32,515 nt of DNA from Comamonadaceae bacterium (GTDB taxonomy: Bacteria > Pseudomonadota > Gammaproteobacteria > Burkholderiales > Burkholderiaceae_C), in contig JAJTGH010000006.1 in the NCBI GenBank assembly GCA_021299555.1, forward strand, positions 1-32,515, read 5' to 3'. Position numbers and translations under genes: made by a program. Shown one piece after another: positions 22,068-26,978 of this stretch. The notes under the pieces were generated by a model that saw only the letters and a list, made by a program, of their open reading frames with translations, searched no databases and had not been told where the DNA came from. Within the stretch, counting starts at the first letter, position 1. Each line of letters begins with the position of its first letter.

Positions 22068-23297
22068 TCAGTCCTGACGCTCCACCACAAAGCTGACCAC
22101 GGTGGCACATGAGCCCCCAATGTTGAGCGTCTGTATGCGTTGAGCGCCCTCAATTTGACACGGCCCGGCCTGACCCGTGACCTGCCGCGCAGCGTCAAAC
22201 AGCATGCGCGATCCGGTAGCGCCCACCGGATGGCCGCAGCCGATCAGCCCGCCGCTGGGATTGATGGGGCAGCGGCCACCCGGTTCGATCCAGCCTTGCT
22301 CGACCGCCTGCCAACTCTGACCCGGGGCAGTCAACCCAAAGTGATCAATAGCCATGTACTCGGTGGTTGTAAAACAGTCGTGCGTCTCTATGCCCGACAG
22401 GGCCTGCGTGCCCTGTATGCCCGCACGCCGCCAGGCATGCTCGATCGCCTCGCGCACATGCGGGAAAACGTAAGCCTGATCCCGACTGCGTTCCAACTTG
22501 TCGCTCAGTCGCAGCCCCGCATTGCGATGCCCCCAACCCGAGATCCGGGCCAATGGCGCCTTGACGCCCTTGGCAGCATGCGCCTGGGCGAAGCGCGCAG
22601 AGGCGAGCACCACGGCACAGGCCCCATCGGTGATTTGTCCGCAATCCTGCCTTCGCGTGCCCGGTTCGATGACCGGATTGGCCTGATCGTCGTCGGTAAA
22701 GCTCAACTCATCAAACTGCCACTTGCGGGTTTGTGCCAAGGGATTGCGCTTGGCGTTGGCATAGTTGATCTGGGCAATGCGATTAAGATATTTGCGGTCG
22801 AGCCCGTATCGGTGATCGTATTCCTGAGCCAGCAGACCAAACGCCGCGGGCCACATGAAGGTGCAGTCTATGCCCTCATGACCCTGCCAAGACGCAGCGT
22901 TTTGATTGACCGACGCCACGTCACCGGCCGTATTCTTGAACTCCTCAACGCCCAACACAAGCACGCAGTCGTAGCGCCCGGATTCAATTTCGGCCATCGC
23001 AGTGAGCACGGCCAGGGAAGAAGATGCACACGCACCTTCATGCCGCATCGCAGGCACGCCCCACAACTGCGGCACCACCTGCGAGACCATGGCACCGAGG
23101 TGGGCCTGGTTGCGCTGCAACTCAGCAAACGCGTTTCCCACATGAATGCTCTCAATCGCCTGAGCATCAAGGCCACAGGCGTCCAAGGCGCCCAGCGTCG
23201 CCTCACGCACCATGTCGGAAATGTCTTGCCCCTGGCGAGACCAGGCTTTGGCAAAGTCGGTCTGGTATCCCCCCAACACAAAAACCGGTGCGCTCAT
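22068..23297 (-). CDS. Thiolase family protein / acetyl-CoA acetyltransferase
   Basis: MSAPVFVLGGYQTDFAKAWSRQGQDISDMVREATLGALDACGLDA, MRHEGACASSSLAVL, NPSGGLIGCGHPVGATGSRM. Confidence 0.92.
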   Translation of the reverse strand: MSAPVFVLGGYQTDFAKAWSRQGQDISDMVREATLGALDACGLDAQAIESIHVGNAFAELQRNQAHLGAMVSQVVPQLWGVPAMRHEGACASSSLAVLTAMAEIESGRYDCVLVLGVEEFKNTAGDVASVNQNAASWQGHEGIDCTFMWPAAFGLLAQEYDHRYGLDRKYLNRIAQINYANAKRNPLAQTRKWQFDELSFTDDDQANPVIEPGTRRQDCGQITDGACAVVLASARFAQAHAAKGVKAPLARISGWGHRNAGLRLSDKLERSRDQAYVFPHVREAIEHAWRRAGIQGTQALSGIETHDCFTTTEYMAIDHFGLTAPGQSWQAVEQGWIEPGGRCPINPSGGLIGCGHPVGATGSRMLFDAARQVTGQAGPCQIEGAQRIQTLNIGGSCATVVSFVVERQD

Positions 23298-23490
23298 GTT
23301 TTCTCCCAGCGTTTGATCCATCGAACCGCTCAGTATCCACCCGTCTGAGGGATATTGTCACAAATGGCGGAAGACCTCAACCCAAAGCCATAAGTGCCCA
23401 GTGCCAGACTCGCTCCAACCAGGCCGCCTGGCCCTTAAGCCGGCTTGCTACACCGTTGGCTCACTGGGTAAGAGCAGCGAGACCTGCATT

Positions 23491-24039
23491 TCACTTCTTG
23501 ACCAACGCGAGAGACCTTGCAAGCGACGCCTCAAAGGCGTCTTTGAGCGGATGGTTCGAAACGGGGAGTGCATCAACCACCTGCTTTGCCCAATCCAAAT
23601 AGTTGAGCCTGCGTTCTTCAGACCAACCCACAGCAGGTCGATCGCCAACATCTCGAACGTTTGAGGTCTTGTCTGCAAGCTTGACCAAGGCGGCTCCAGG
23701 GGACTTGTGCGGCGCGTTGACGAGCTGCATCTGTTTACGCTGGGCCTTATCCGTGATGGACTTGTCATCCGTGACCTCGGCAACCATGGACGCCACCCGG
23801 ACGCCAAAATGCGCGGCAAGCTCAGATTCGGTGGTTGCTGTGTCCTCGATGGTGTCGTGAAGCAATGCCGCGGCGATGATCTCTGGGTCTGACACGCCAC
23901 CGTCTTCAGCCAGAATTCGGGCGACCTGTAGCGGATGATTGATATACGCGGTTGACTCAGCTTCTTTTCGCAACTGACCGCGATGCTTGTCGGCGGCGAA
24001 GTTGGCCGCTTTAAGGATGAGAACGAGGTTGTTGTCCAT
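23491..24039 (-). CDS. Stand-alone SpoT/MESH1-type HD domain phosphohydrolase
   Basis: 182 aa; AADKHRGQLRKEAESTAYINHPLQVA, ALLHDTIEDTATTESEL, KLADKTSNVRDV = RelA/SpoT hydrolase HD motifs without synthetase, TGS or ACT domains. Confidence 0.88.
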   Translation of the reverse strand: MDNNLVLILKAANFAADKHRGQLRKEAESTAYINHPLQVARILAEDGGVSDPEIIAAALLHDTIEDTATTESELAAHFGVRVASMVAEVTDDKSITDKAQRKQMQLVNAPHKSPGAALVKLADKTSNVRDVGDRPAVGWSEERRLNYLDWAKQVVDALPVSNHPLKDAFEASLARSLALVKK

Positions 24040-24048
24040 ACTGGTTCC

Positions 24049-25851
24049 TTATGGTTGACTGATTGTTTTGCAGAGCTGATTGATGTAGTCGGTCGCGTCA
24101 AACTCCACTGGCTTTGCGCCGTCTATCCCAACGATGATGGGCGTTTCACCAAAGTGAAGCCACATGTCGCGTCCTGCTGCATCGCGAGACGGTAACCCGC
24201 TCTTGCAGATGCGGCGTGCTGCACCCAGCGCAGCCTCGGCGCTGCTGAAGGTGTTTTCACTCCACGATTGACCATAATCGAAGTTATCGAGCACATCGAT
24301 TCGGTACCGTGGACCCTTCATCGAACGGCGGCGGGTTGAATCCACCGCACACAGCAGCGACAGCGTGGCGTCGATCACTTCATCAAACTCCTTACCCAAT
24401 TGCCGATTCGCTGGACCAACGGCGTGTGCAAGTGCCCAATCGCCTTTCCTTTGTTCAAGGGCAATCGTGGCTCTCCGCTGCCCGCCAGCGTCTCTAACCG
24501 AAAGAACAAGGCACGTTCCTGTCTTGCAGCGCTCTCCATACAGGTCTGCGCAGTGACGCATTGCGATCGACTCCTCCCAGAGATCCCGACCGCAGGTGAG
24601 CGGCACTGCTGTGTAGTCGCCAACCGTCACCGGATGCAGAGGGACGCTCCACTGGAGCGACTCCAGCTCAAGCGCACGCCGTCTTTGCTCGGCGTGCGTT
24701 CGTGCGCTTCGAACCAAGAACGCCCAGCCTCTTTTGCGCTGCCGCGGCAAAATCTGACGCACCGCCGTATCAGCCACCCAGGCACAGATTTCATGCAGTT
24801 CGGTGATGCGCTGGTCACGGCTTCGCGGCGCCTTGCCGGTTTCCAGGAGCCGGATGATGTGCCCAAGCGTATTGCGCACTGGAGCAAGGTTATCAGCATA
24901 GCTTTCTGGGGCGCTGGCTCGGGTCCCCACCATGGACAAGATAACGCGCCAGACATCCGGGTCAATTTCGTGGCTGGGTTTGAGTTGGGCGATGACCCGC
25001 AAAAAGTCTTCTGCGGGTTCGTCAGGAGCAGCCAGCAGTCTCCACTGCGCTGGTTTGACGCCGCGCAGTAGGCAAGCTTGCTTGAAGCGGGCACTGGCTT
25101 GTGTTGAACCACGGGCGTCCGCCTCCGGCATGGTTAGCCAGCGGGCAAGCAGCGCAAATATTGGGGAGCACTCTTTCAACTGCAGGAGGACATCGCGCGT
25201 GCCGCGGTAGTTGTTGTACGCGGTCACGGTTTGGCGAGAACTACCGCCGTCAAACCTGTGACACCATCGCATCAGCGAAACGGTCTGCAGGTCGAGTGCC
25301 AGCCCGGCGCGAATACGCGAGCGCAGACGGCGCAGATCAATCGGGTCAATGATCCGCTGGCGAATGAGCGACCATGCCCATTGCGCCCATTGCTCACCAG
25401 CCGTCTGATCCCCGAGCCGCGCTTGGGCTTCGTAGACAAATGCCTGTTCCAGCTTTTGATGCCATAGCCCTGTACTCGGGAAGTCGAGGATAGGGGTCTC
25501 GAGCGGATAGAAGTCGACCAGCCAGCTCTGACAGTCATCTTGTGGGCGCTGCCAAAGGGCAGTGGTGAAGGAGCCGTCATCCTCCTGGTGGTAGACCACC
25601 ACTCCCAGAATGGCGTGAAAAACACGCCCATCAGACTCGACACGTCGGATGGGGTCAGCCACGATATCCGTAACATGCCGGGCAAAAGACACCAAATGGT
25701 GGGCGCAATGCGCCTGGGCAAGCGCGTTCGGCGGCTCTTTAGCCAGTAACTCCTGCTCCAGAGCAGACAGCTCAACGGGCAATGAGTCGATTGAGGGACG
25801 GCAGATACCGCAATGCAGCAGTGCCGGGTAAGCGCTCAATGGTTCGTTCAT
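24049..25851 (-). CDS. PcfJ-like domain protein
   Basis: 600 aa from ATG 25851 (SD AAGGAG); C-terminal SIAMRHCADLYGERCKTGTCLVLSVRDAGGQRRATIALEQRKGDWALAHAVGPANRQL resembles the PcfJ-like HC(V/A)xxY...G...hxhR core; N-terminal ~350 aa unassigned. Confidence 0.65.
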   Translation of the reverse strand: MNEPLSAYPALLHCGICRPSIDSLPVELSALEQELLAKEPPNALAQAHCAHHLVSFARHVTDIVADPIRRVESDGRVFHAILGVVVYHQEDDGSFTTALWQRPQDDCQSWLVDFYPLETPILDFPSTGLWHQKLEQAFVYEAQARLGDQTAGEQWAQWAWSLIRQRIIDPIDLRRLRSRIRAGLALDLQTVSLMRWCHRFDGGSSRQTVTAYNNYRGTRDVLLQLKECSPIFALLARWLTMPEADARGSTQASARFKQACLLRGVKPAQWRLLAAPDEPAEDFLRVIAQLKPSHEIDPDVWRVILSMVGTRASAPESYADNLAPVRNTLGHIIRLLETGKAPRSRDQRITELHEICAWVADTAVRQILPRQRKRGWAFLVRSARTHAEQRRRALELESLQWSVPLHPVTVGDYTAVPLTCGRDLWEESIAMRHCADLYGERCKTGTCLVLSVRDAGGQRRATIALEQRKGDWALAHAVGPANRQLGKEFDEVIDATLSLLCAVDSTRRRSMKGPRYRIDVLDNFDYGQSWSENTFSSAEAALGAARRICKSGLPSRDAAGRDMWLHFGETPIIVGIDGAKPVEFDATDYINQLCKTISQP

Positions 25852-25878
25852 GATTACTCCTTGTGGGATTTGGCTCAA

Positions 25879-26016
25879 CAAGGCGTCCGGCTGGATCGCA
25901 GGCAGACGCCTTGGTGAACCCCGACCGGGGTACTCCTGCTCATCGCAGGTCCTCTAGGACAGGGGACTCACCCCAACCAACCCATTGATCCAGCCCTCTC
26001 GCTGGCTTCTCCGGAG
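25879..26016 (-). ncRNA. Putative structured leader RNA / ncRNA upstream of the PcfJ-like gene
   Basis: Consecutive perfect inverted repeats: CAAGGCGTC/GACGCCTTG (25879-25887/25905-25913), CCCC/GGGG (25919-25930), CCTGC/GCAGG (25935-25949), TCC/GGA (25950-25959), GGGG/CCCC (25962-25974), CCAGC/GCTGG (25990-26005), CTCCGGAG (26009-26016), plus perfect 9-bp long-range pairing GGCTGGATC (25889-25897) / GATCCAGCC (25987-25995). Confidence 0.5.
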
Positions 26017-26075
26017 TCCAACCACTGACGGGAGCCATTGCCGATGCGCTACTTAGTGGCATAACGCATATATGT

Positions 26076-26104
26076 AATGTAGCACCGTTCGTGGTACCAT
26101 GCAA
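26076..26104 (-). promoter_or_regulatory. Candidate promoter and operator for the PcfJ/HD operon
   Basis: Minus strand TTGCAT - 17 bp - TACATT; overlapping imperfect 7-5-7 inverted repeat GTAGCAC-cgttc-GTGGTAC (26079-26097). Confidence 0.4.
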
Positions 26105-26135
26105 CTATGTCTGAAAAACACCACAAAAAAGTGTC

Positions 26136-26816
26136 ATGCCGACCTATCTAATGCCCTTTTGCAGGGTCGAAATCGCTGTTCAGAGCCTGATTGATCAGCG
26201 GCTGAACGTATTGCTGATACGAAGGGAAGAGGCGCCTTACAAAGGCTTCTGGGCGCTTCCAGGAGGGGTTCTGCGCGTAGATCTTGACCCCGATCTTGGT
26301 GCTGCAGCAGTCAGGGTTGCCAAAGAGAGGCTGGGCATCCCACCGCCGAACCTTTGCCAAATGAAAACGGTGGGCGCCAAGGGACGGGATCCCCGTGGTG
26401 AGGCTGGCTGGGGTCTATCGGTAGTCTACAGGGCGTTGATCGCCGAGGGCGCCGCGACCTTCGCTCCTGGCAAGCGGGTGACGGAATTGCGATGGGTGCC
26501 AGTTGATGAACTCCCGACCAAGATCGCATTCGATCACGCTGAATTGATTGCGCAGGCGGTAAACCAGACGCGTTCAGACATTGCGAAGCTGAGCTTTCCC
26601 ACGGGCTTTGTGCCAGAGCGTTTCACGCTCGGGGAACTCCAGGTCTTGTCGGAACAAGTGCTGGGGCACACGATAGACAAGGCGTCGTTCAGGCGCAAGT
26701 TGCGCGACCGAGGCTTGGTAGAAGCGATTGAGGGTGAACAGCTGCGCGGAAGCGCACATCGCCCATCAGCGATTTTTCGGCTAAGACGATCAGCGGTTCA
26801 GCCCAACGGCATCTGA
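26136..26816 (+). CDS. NrtR-like NUDIX domain / winged-helix transcriptional regulator
   Basis: N-terminal NUDIX fold (VLLIRREEAPYKGFWALPGGVLRVDLDPDLGAAAVRVAKERLGI) and C-terminal FTLGELQVLSEQVLGHTIDKASFRRKLRDRGLVEAIEGEQLRGSAHRPSAIFRLR, the NrtR wHTH arrangement. Confidence 0.87.
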   Translation: MPTYLMPFCRVEIAVQSLIDQRLNVLLIRREEAPYKGFWALPGGVLRVDLDPDLGAAAVRVAKERLGIPPPNLCQMKTVGAKGRDPRGEAGWGLSVVYRALIAEGAATFAPGKRVTELRWVPVDELPTKIAFDHAELIAQAVNQTRSDIAKLSFPTGFVPERFTLGELQVLSEQVLGHTIDKASFRRKLRDRGLVEAIEGEQLRGSAHRPSAIFRLRRSAVQPNGI

Positions 26817-26900: not shown

Positions 26901-26978
26901 TGGCGCGGCTGGCAGGATTCGAACCCACGACCCCTTGGTTCGTAGCCAAGTACTCTAATCCAACTGAGCTACAGCCGC
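26901..26978 (-). tRNA. tRNA-Arg (anticodon ACG), CCA encoded
   Basis: Minus strand GCGGCTGTAGCTCAGTTGGATTAGAGTACTTGGCTACGAACCAAGGGGTCGTGGGTTCGAATCCTGCCAGCCGCGCCA folds as a cloverleaf; anticodon loop CTACGAA. Confidence 0.96.

Follow-up and report, generated by a model that had tools for sequence, protein, structure and literature searches.

A putative NrtR-controlled operon encoding PcfJ-like and MESH1-like proteins in a Comamonadaceae bacterium

Results

We analyzed a 32,515-nucleotide stretch of DNA from a Comamonadaceae bacterium (contig JAJTGH010000006.1 of assembly GCA_021299555.1), hereafter called the window, which is contig C196 of a 217-contig genome that is 83% complete. Three genes lie in it between a thiolase gene and a tRNA gene, in the order thiolase (−), HD hydrolase (−), PcfJ-like (−), NUDIX winged helix-turn-helix (wHTH) (+) and tRNA-Arg(ACG) (−). 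On balance we consider it probable, by a modest margin over even, that these genes form an accessory operon which an NrtR-type protein represses and which belongs to the NAD/ADP-ribose network; it would be a variant of predicted systems that combine an ADP-ribosylglycohydrolase, a Nudix or WYL regulator and a phosphatase, here with a PcfJ protein and without the glycohydrolase. An earlier reading made from the letters alone (the sequence-only reading) had described the three-gene module, had placed the HD gene 9 bp downstream of the PcfJ-like gene with a Shine-Dalgarno sequence of its own, and had assigned the proteins to NrtR-like NUDIX, PcfJ-like and MESH1-like HD families. Open reading frame (ORF) calls and Pfam confirmed the module, and the family calls held when examined by Pfam, PDB matches, profiles of relatives and fold comparison.

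The regulator and its predicted operators

The longest ORF of the NUDIX-wHTH gene (26136–26816, + strand) encodes 226 amino acids. In all of the closest relatives the protein starts with what is here the second Met (MPF...), so the start is probably at 26151, giving a putative NrtR-family repressor gene at 26151–26816. Pfam scores exceeded the cut-offs for both NrtR_WHD (55.9 bits, cut-off 27) and NUDIX (44.8 bits, cut-off 21.1), and the best PDB match was Shewanella NrtR 3gz5 (E = 1.6e-27). The Nudix box, GGVLRVDLDPDLGAAAVRVAKERLGI, is degenerate, several acidic residues of the motif GX5EX7REUXEEXGU being gone. An impaired Nudix box is a criterion for NrtR (PMC4666351), and other NrtR proteins with a decayed box bind ADP-ribose but do not cleave it (PMC6800001, PMC4666351). 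The protein scored 147.7 bits against the NCBIfam NrtR equivalog, for which the cut-off is 400, and its neighbors at the locus are PcfJ and HD genes rather than genes of NAD metabolism; NAPRT was not found in this incomplete genome. By these comparisons the regulator is a member of the NrtR family but not the NAD-salvage NrtR equivalog, and ligand binding is predicted. It shares with Shewanella NrtR (3gz5/3gz6) the domain architecture, the decayed Nudix box and a palindromic operator of the TTAGT..ACTAA type at a divergent promoter, but differs in that its predicted target is pcfJ-HD, not NAD salvage.

For the prediction of operators, a position weight matrix (PWM) was built from the upstream regions of 33 other NUDIX (NrtR-like) loci, the window being excluded. 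These regions have in common a 23-bp palindrome with the consensus GTTAGTTGCATAATGCAACTAAC. The two strongest sites of the 32.5 kb both fall between the divergent NUDIX and PcfJ genes, with a spacing of 35 bp: predicted site 1, CTTAGTGGCATAACGCATATATG, at 26052–26074 (16.1 bits, second best) and predicted site 2, GTTCGTGGTACCATGCAACTATG, at 26087–26109 (18.8 bits, best), with the next-best score anywhere else being 8.9 bits. Among 2000 intergenic shuffles, one reached the score of the weaker site and none that of the stronger; in approximately 700 kb of other DNA lacking NUDIX loci, nearly all sites above 14 bits came from one AT-rich viral contig. A matching operator pair, spaced 36 bp apart, is found at three loci encoding close NUDIX relatives with 55% identity (L152, L153 and L154, in genomes G104, G012 and G546, respectively), where the NUDIX gene is divergent from a Pnkp/PrpE-like metallophosphoesterase gene; the G546 NUDIX copy contains an in-frame TAG. 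Control of the divergent pcfJ-HD operon by the NUDIX protein is well supported in silico, with binding predicted and the paired operators as the strongest new evidence. Such control had been proposed in the sequence-only reading, and this part of its interpretation gains two NrtR-type operators of conserved spacing in the shared promoter region, while the interpretation overall is supported in part.

A leader of about 200 nt (25852–26051, − strand) separates the operators from the start of the PcfJ gene; by folding, its minus strand contains several hairpins in succession, one of them with 22-nt arms at 25872–25893 and 25899–25920. Its minimum free energy was −84 kcal/mol, with a shuffle z-score of only −1.3, and no Rfam family scored above the gathering score; we thus rejected a known structured RNA. 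A search of 200 genomes of the family returned one 41-base match to the leader, 83% identical.

The MESH1-like hydrolase

The HD gene (23491–24039, − strand) encodes a protein of 182 amino acids whose only domain is HD_4/HD (HD_4 at 66.7 bits, cut-off 27.2), with no synthetase, TGS or ACT domain. The PcfJ stop and the HD start are separated by 9 bases (24040–24048), and AAGGAA precedes the HD ATG. The best solved relatives in a phmmer search were human and fly MESH1 (human 3nr1, E = 4e-50). Alignment with human MESH1 gave 87 identities over 169 positions (51%), and the MESH1 residues H35, H61-D62, E65-D66, D122, N126, W138, R142 and Y146 are all kept. The protein belongs by family to the small alarmone hydrolases (SAHs) of the MESH1/HDDC3 type, and its activity is predicted. 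The window already holds a full-length RelA/SpoT-type protein of this genome (17465–19882), so that the HD gene represents an accessory copy.

MESH1-type enzymes dephosphorylate NADPH, and the orphan bacterial relative XccSAH hydrolyzes pppApp, (p)ppGpp and, slowly and weakly, NADPH (PMC9765508); in one study, however, NADPH hydrolysis by Mesh1-type enzymes was not seen by thin-layer chromatography (PMC7644958). The HD protein resembles MESH1/HDDC3 and XccSAH in having a single HD domain with all catalytic residues, but differs from them in that its gene is predicted to share a transcript with PcfJ and to be governed by an NrtR-type regulator. A MESH1-like HD gene encoding a 46% identical protein is also present among the structural genes of Bordetella phage vB_BbrM_PHB04 (L163, 35166–35744), directly followed by a metallophosphatase gene.

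The PcfJ-like protein

The first gene of the operon (24049–25851, − strand) encodes a 600-residue PcfJ-like protein, with an ATG start preceded by AAGGAG; the reading frame stays open upstream to a TTG at 25881. Its PF14284 score of 24.1 bits is just under the gathering cut-off of 25. PF14284 was nevertheless matched at E ≤ 0.01 by 18 of 20 aligned relatives drawn from the same order (Burkholderiales), the best at 3.9e-14, and the predicted structure matched annotated phage PcfJ models in BFVD with E of about 1e-6 (Foldseek). The profile of relatives and the fold comparison identify the protein as a divergent PcfJ member, and the assignment, which the sequence-only reading had been ready to abandon on profile comparison, stood.

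The core domain (residues 368–511; 24319–24750, − strand) was modeled by AlphaFold2 with a mean predicted local distance difference test score (pLDDT) of 92.3 and a beta-alpha-alpha-beta-beta-beta topology. Cys434 (in MRHC) and Asn482 are invariant. The 50 best-scoring PDB matches to the core model were GNAT acetyltransferases or FemX-type GNAT-fold enzymes, and at the sequence level we found no credible PDB match. The model suggests that the core has a GNAT-like fold, which by itself does not prove acyl transfer. With the PF14284 proteins of plasmid pCF10 and phages the protein shares the core with its HC...C..G...N motif as well as the Foldseek matches to phage PcfJ-like proteins. It differs from them in a long divergent N-terminal region and in an extra C-terminal domain of about 85 residues (24049–24321, − strand), which elsewhere is a separate gene adjoining genes for ADP-ribose processing. 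This stand-alone homologue, a 91-residue ORF (L060:3897–4172, genome G136; 33% identity, E = 6e-12), lies at a contig end beside DUF1810 and ADP_ribosyl_GH genes (L060:781–4172). Neither this C-terminal domain nor a PcfJ close to that of the window was found on plasmids, and viral contigs likewise yielded no close PcfJ. One further PcfJ-like protein (L113:4452–6512) carries a HIRAN domain fused at its C-terminus (Pfam HIRAN, E = 1.2e-12), the only member to do so. Mentions of PcfJ in the open literature that we searched were only incidental.

Gene pairs in other genomes

The sequence-only reading had named a lack of recurrent co-occurrence of the three families in unrelated genomes as grounds for its rejection; two of the pairs recur, although the trio as a unit was not seen in the other genomes searched. 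The NUDIX-HD pair occurs in genome G573 (L151), from another family of the order, where a NUDIX gene (54% identity) has an HD gene (56%) directly after it in the same orientation; this NUDIX protein is the best-scoring NUDIX homologue and has a near-perfect predicted operator upstream. The HD-PcfJ pair occurs on CAIVXG010000041.1 (genome G370; L055/L076), with HD preceding PcfJ and the order thus swapped relative to the window. The PcfJ encoded there is full-length and is the only other one that is similar over about 495 residues (26% identity, E = 2e-30). In genome G260 a 96% identical HD gene lies at a contig end, so that its partner is not visible. A single-sequence PcfJ scan of 84,980 genomes gave no match, and an alignment-based scan gave three loci.

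The next-nearest PcfJ relatives, at L077 (JAABQW010000282.1) and L104 (genome G639), are 72% identical to each other and sit in a common cluster with genes for ADP_ribosyl_GH, DUF932, a WYL regulator and UDG, the cluster of L077 containing in addition a DSP-type (rhodanese-type) phosphatase gene. By path length in the tree, the PcfJ of the window is nearest to those of CAIVXG010000041.1, L077 and L104. The DUF932 and UDG-superfamily genes are observed here as members of this ADP-ribosylglycohydrolase/WYL/PcfJ cluster, and at a further PcfJ locus (L103:1806–2810, genome G676) a WYL regulator gene lies about 2.5 kb away. In genome G222 the HD gene precedes ADP_ribosyl_GH, and on a Methylocalor plasmid it is convergent with a TY-Chap1/3 protein gene. 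Wider NUDIX relatives adjoin genes for NAD salvage, KptA, ADP_ribosyl_GH, NADAR-like, macro and SPFH/PfkB proteins, and also TY-chaperone, metallophosphoesterase and HD genes. The arrangement in which an NrtR-like NUDIX gene is divergent from SPFH/Band-7 and PfkB-type kinase genes recurs across Rhizobium and Burkholderiales (L067, L132, L138, L143, L144, L146, L174 and L176) and is apparently uncharacterized.

Genomic setting

The module is bounded by the thiolase gene (22068–23321, − strand; Pfam Thiolase_N/C) and tRNA-Arg(ACG) (26901–26978, − strand). The GC content at third codon positions (GC3) of its genes is 0.63–0.64, compared to about 0.70–0.80 in most neighboring genes, and since it lies below that of the neighbors, an acquired origin fits. 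That the module is accessory is indicated by its sporadic distribution and the variety of its partners, along with the low GC3. The window showed neither an integrase nor an att-like copy of the tRNA end, and a tyrosine-integrase island at the tRNA was rejected, the tRNA 3' end not being repeated there. In the 13 genomes of the same genus that were compared, the flanking thiolase was not found and the NlpC gene was only 49% alike, so that an empty insertion site is not visible in the genus. PADLOC gave no matching model, and a known defense system was accordingly rejected.

Discussion

The locus is best compared with the predicted ADP-ribose counter-systems centered on ADP-ribosylglycohydrolases, of which Nudix and WYL regulators, HD and calcineurin-like phosphatases and TY chaperones are parts (PMC9503650, section 3.8). 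Like these systems it has a Nudix-wHTH one-component repressor, an associated HD phosphatase related to alarmone hydrolases and an accessory, modular gene content, and its L077 and L104 PcfJ relatives lie within WYL-type versions. It differs in lacking an ADP-ribosylglycohydrolase and a chaperone, and PcfJ has 0 occurrences in PMC9503650. Because the glycohydrolase is missing, we do not file the locus as such a system. PcfJ is common to the window locus (with Nudix and HD) and to L077/L104 (with WYL and glycohydrolase), and the simplest account is that it may be an unrecognized component of the ADP-ribose counter-system network.

In the operation that we propose, a dimer of the NUDIX-wHTH protein would by default occupy the two palindromic operators and repress both its own gene and pcfJ-HD. 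A rise in ADP-ribose or a related product of NAD degradation, for instance during NAD consumption or phage ADP-ribosylation, would lead this ligand to bind the catalytically decayed Nudix domain, and the DNA would be released, as in characterized NrtR proteins. Judging from its 51% identity to MESH1 and its complete set of catalytic residues, the induced HD enzyme would strip ribose 2'/3' phosphates from alarmones ((p)ppGpp or (p)ppApp), NADPH or phosphorylated ADP-ribose derivatives. PcfJ, with its GNAT-like core and invariant Cys and Asn, may act on or bind a modified target or nucleotide as part of this response, as gene context suggests. The locus may also have a role in defense.

Several observations weigh against this account. 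Pfam found no ADP-ribosylglycohydrolase between the thiolase and the tRNA; one lies elsewhere in the genome, as pieces at contig ends without NrtR operators, and one piece adjoins ordinary transporter genes. None of the other genomes searched contained the full trio, beyond the window each exact pair turned up a single time, and most PcfJ genes and most accessory HD genes are not mutually adjacent but have other neighbors. The tree does not support the four PcfJ proteins linked to ADP-ribose or HD genes as one clade. Relative to the operators at related loci, those of the window are degenerate, and no sigma-70 promoter that fits the consensus was identified. The GNAT matches are weak (probability mostly 0.6–1.0, TM-score 0.3–0.5, E ≥ 0.009), and ligands of the NrtR family vary, including ADP-ribose, NAD and even L-arabinose (PMC4666351).

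NAD salvage is the main target of NrtR relatives, and the locus might be a plain metabolic operon in which an NrtR-type repressor tunes an NADPH or alarmone phosphatase for NAD pools, with PcfJ as passenger or helper and no role in conflict. The NADPH phosphatase activity of MESH1-type enzymes and the retention of W138, R142 and Y146 would fit this explanation. We regard it as unlikely, given that the distribution, GC3 and partners indicate an accessory module, that PcfJ relatives co-occur with ADP-ribosylglycohydrolase/WYL clusters, and that NADPH hydrolysis is slow in bacterial SAHs and disputed for Mesh1-type enzymes.

A toxin-antitoxin pair, with PcfJ as the toxin that makes or transfers a harmful product and the HD hydrolase as the antitoxin, in the manner of the toxSAS SAHs, would accord with the PcfJ/HD adjacency in two unrelated genomes in swapped order, with the known function of SAHs as antitoxins (PMC9765508), and with a GNAT-like core, which acyl-transfer toxins would fit. 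It seems distinctly improbable to us: Pfam and the profiles of relatives detected no RelA_SpoT synthetase domain in the PcfJ-like protein, so that the alarmone-synthetase partner of toxSAS is missing; most PcfJ genes have no adjacent HD gene; the G573 HD pairs with NUDIX without PcfJ; and regulation is predicted to be by the NrtR protein, not by the HD protein. The trio could also be a chance assembly at a tRNA hot spot, with the NUDIX protein regulating only its own gene and PcfJ-HD an unrelated cassette, as its proximity to the tRNA, low GC3, uniqueness and the leader of about 200 bp separating operators from pcfJ might be taken to mean. This we hold to be very unlikely, since paired operators occupy the divergent region just as in relatives that face a divergent phosphoesterase gene, and the pairings of NUDIX with HD and of HD with PcfJ are seen again elsewhere.

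We therefore retain the NrtR-repressed accessory operon as our preferred explanation. A broader proposal, tentative and rather doubtful, is that PcfJ proteins are a GNAT-like family of enzymes or target-binding proteins in NAD/ADP-ribose conflict which, with Nudix or WYL repressors and MESH1-like or rhodanese-type phosphatases, either reverse phage ADP-ribosylation or turn it to use. The PcfJ family is widespread on phages and plasmids but has no assigned function, and it gains here a first testable functional lead, which rests on an ADP-ribose-type sensor, an adjoining MESH1-like phosphatase, and close relatives in ADP-ribosylglycohydrolase clusters. The same arrangement would tie bacterial MESH1 enzymes, recognized as antitoxins or as NADPH/alarmone phosphatases, to NrtR-controlled ADP-ribose stress.

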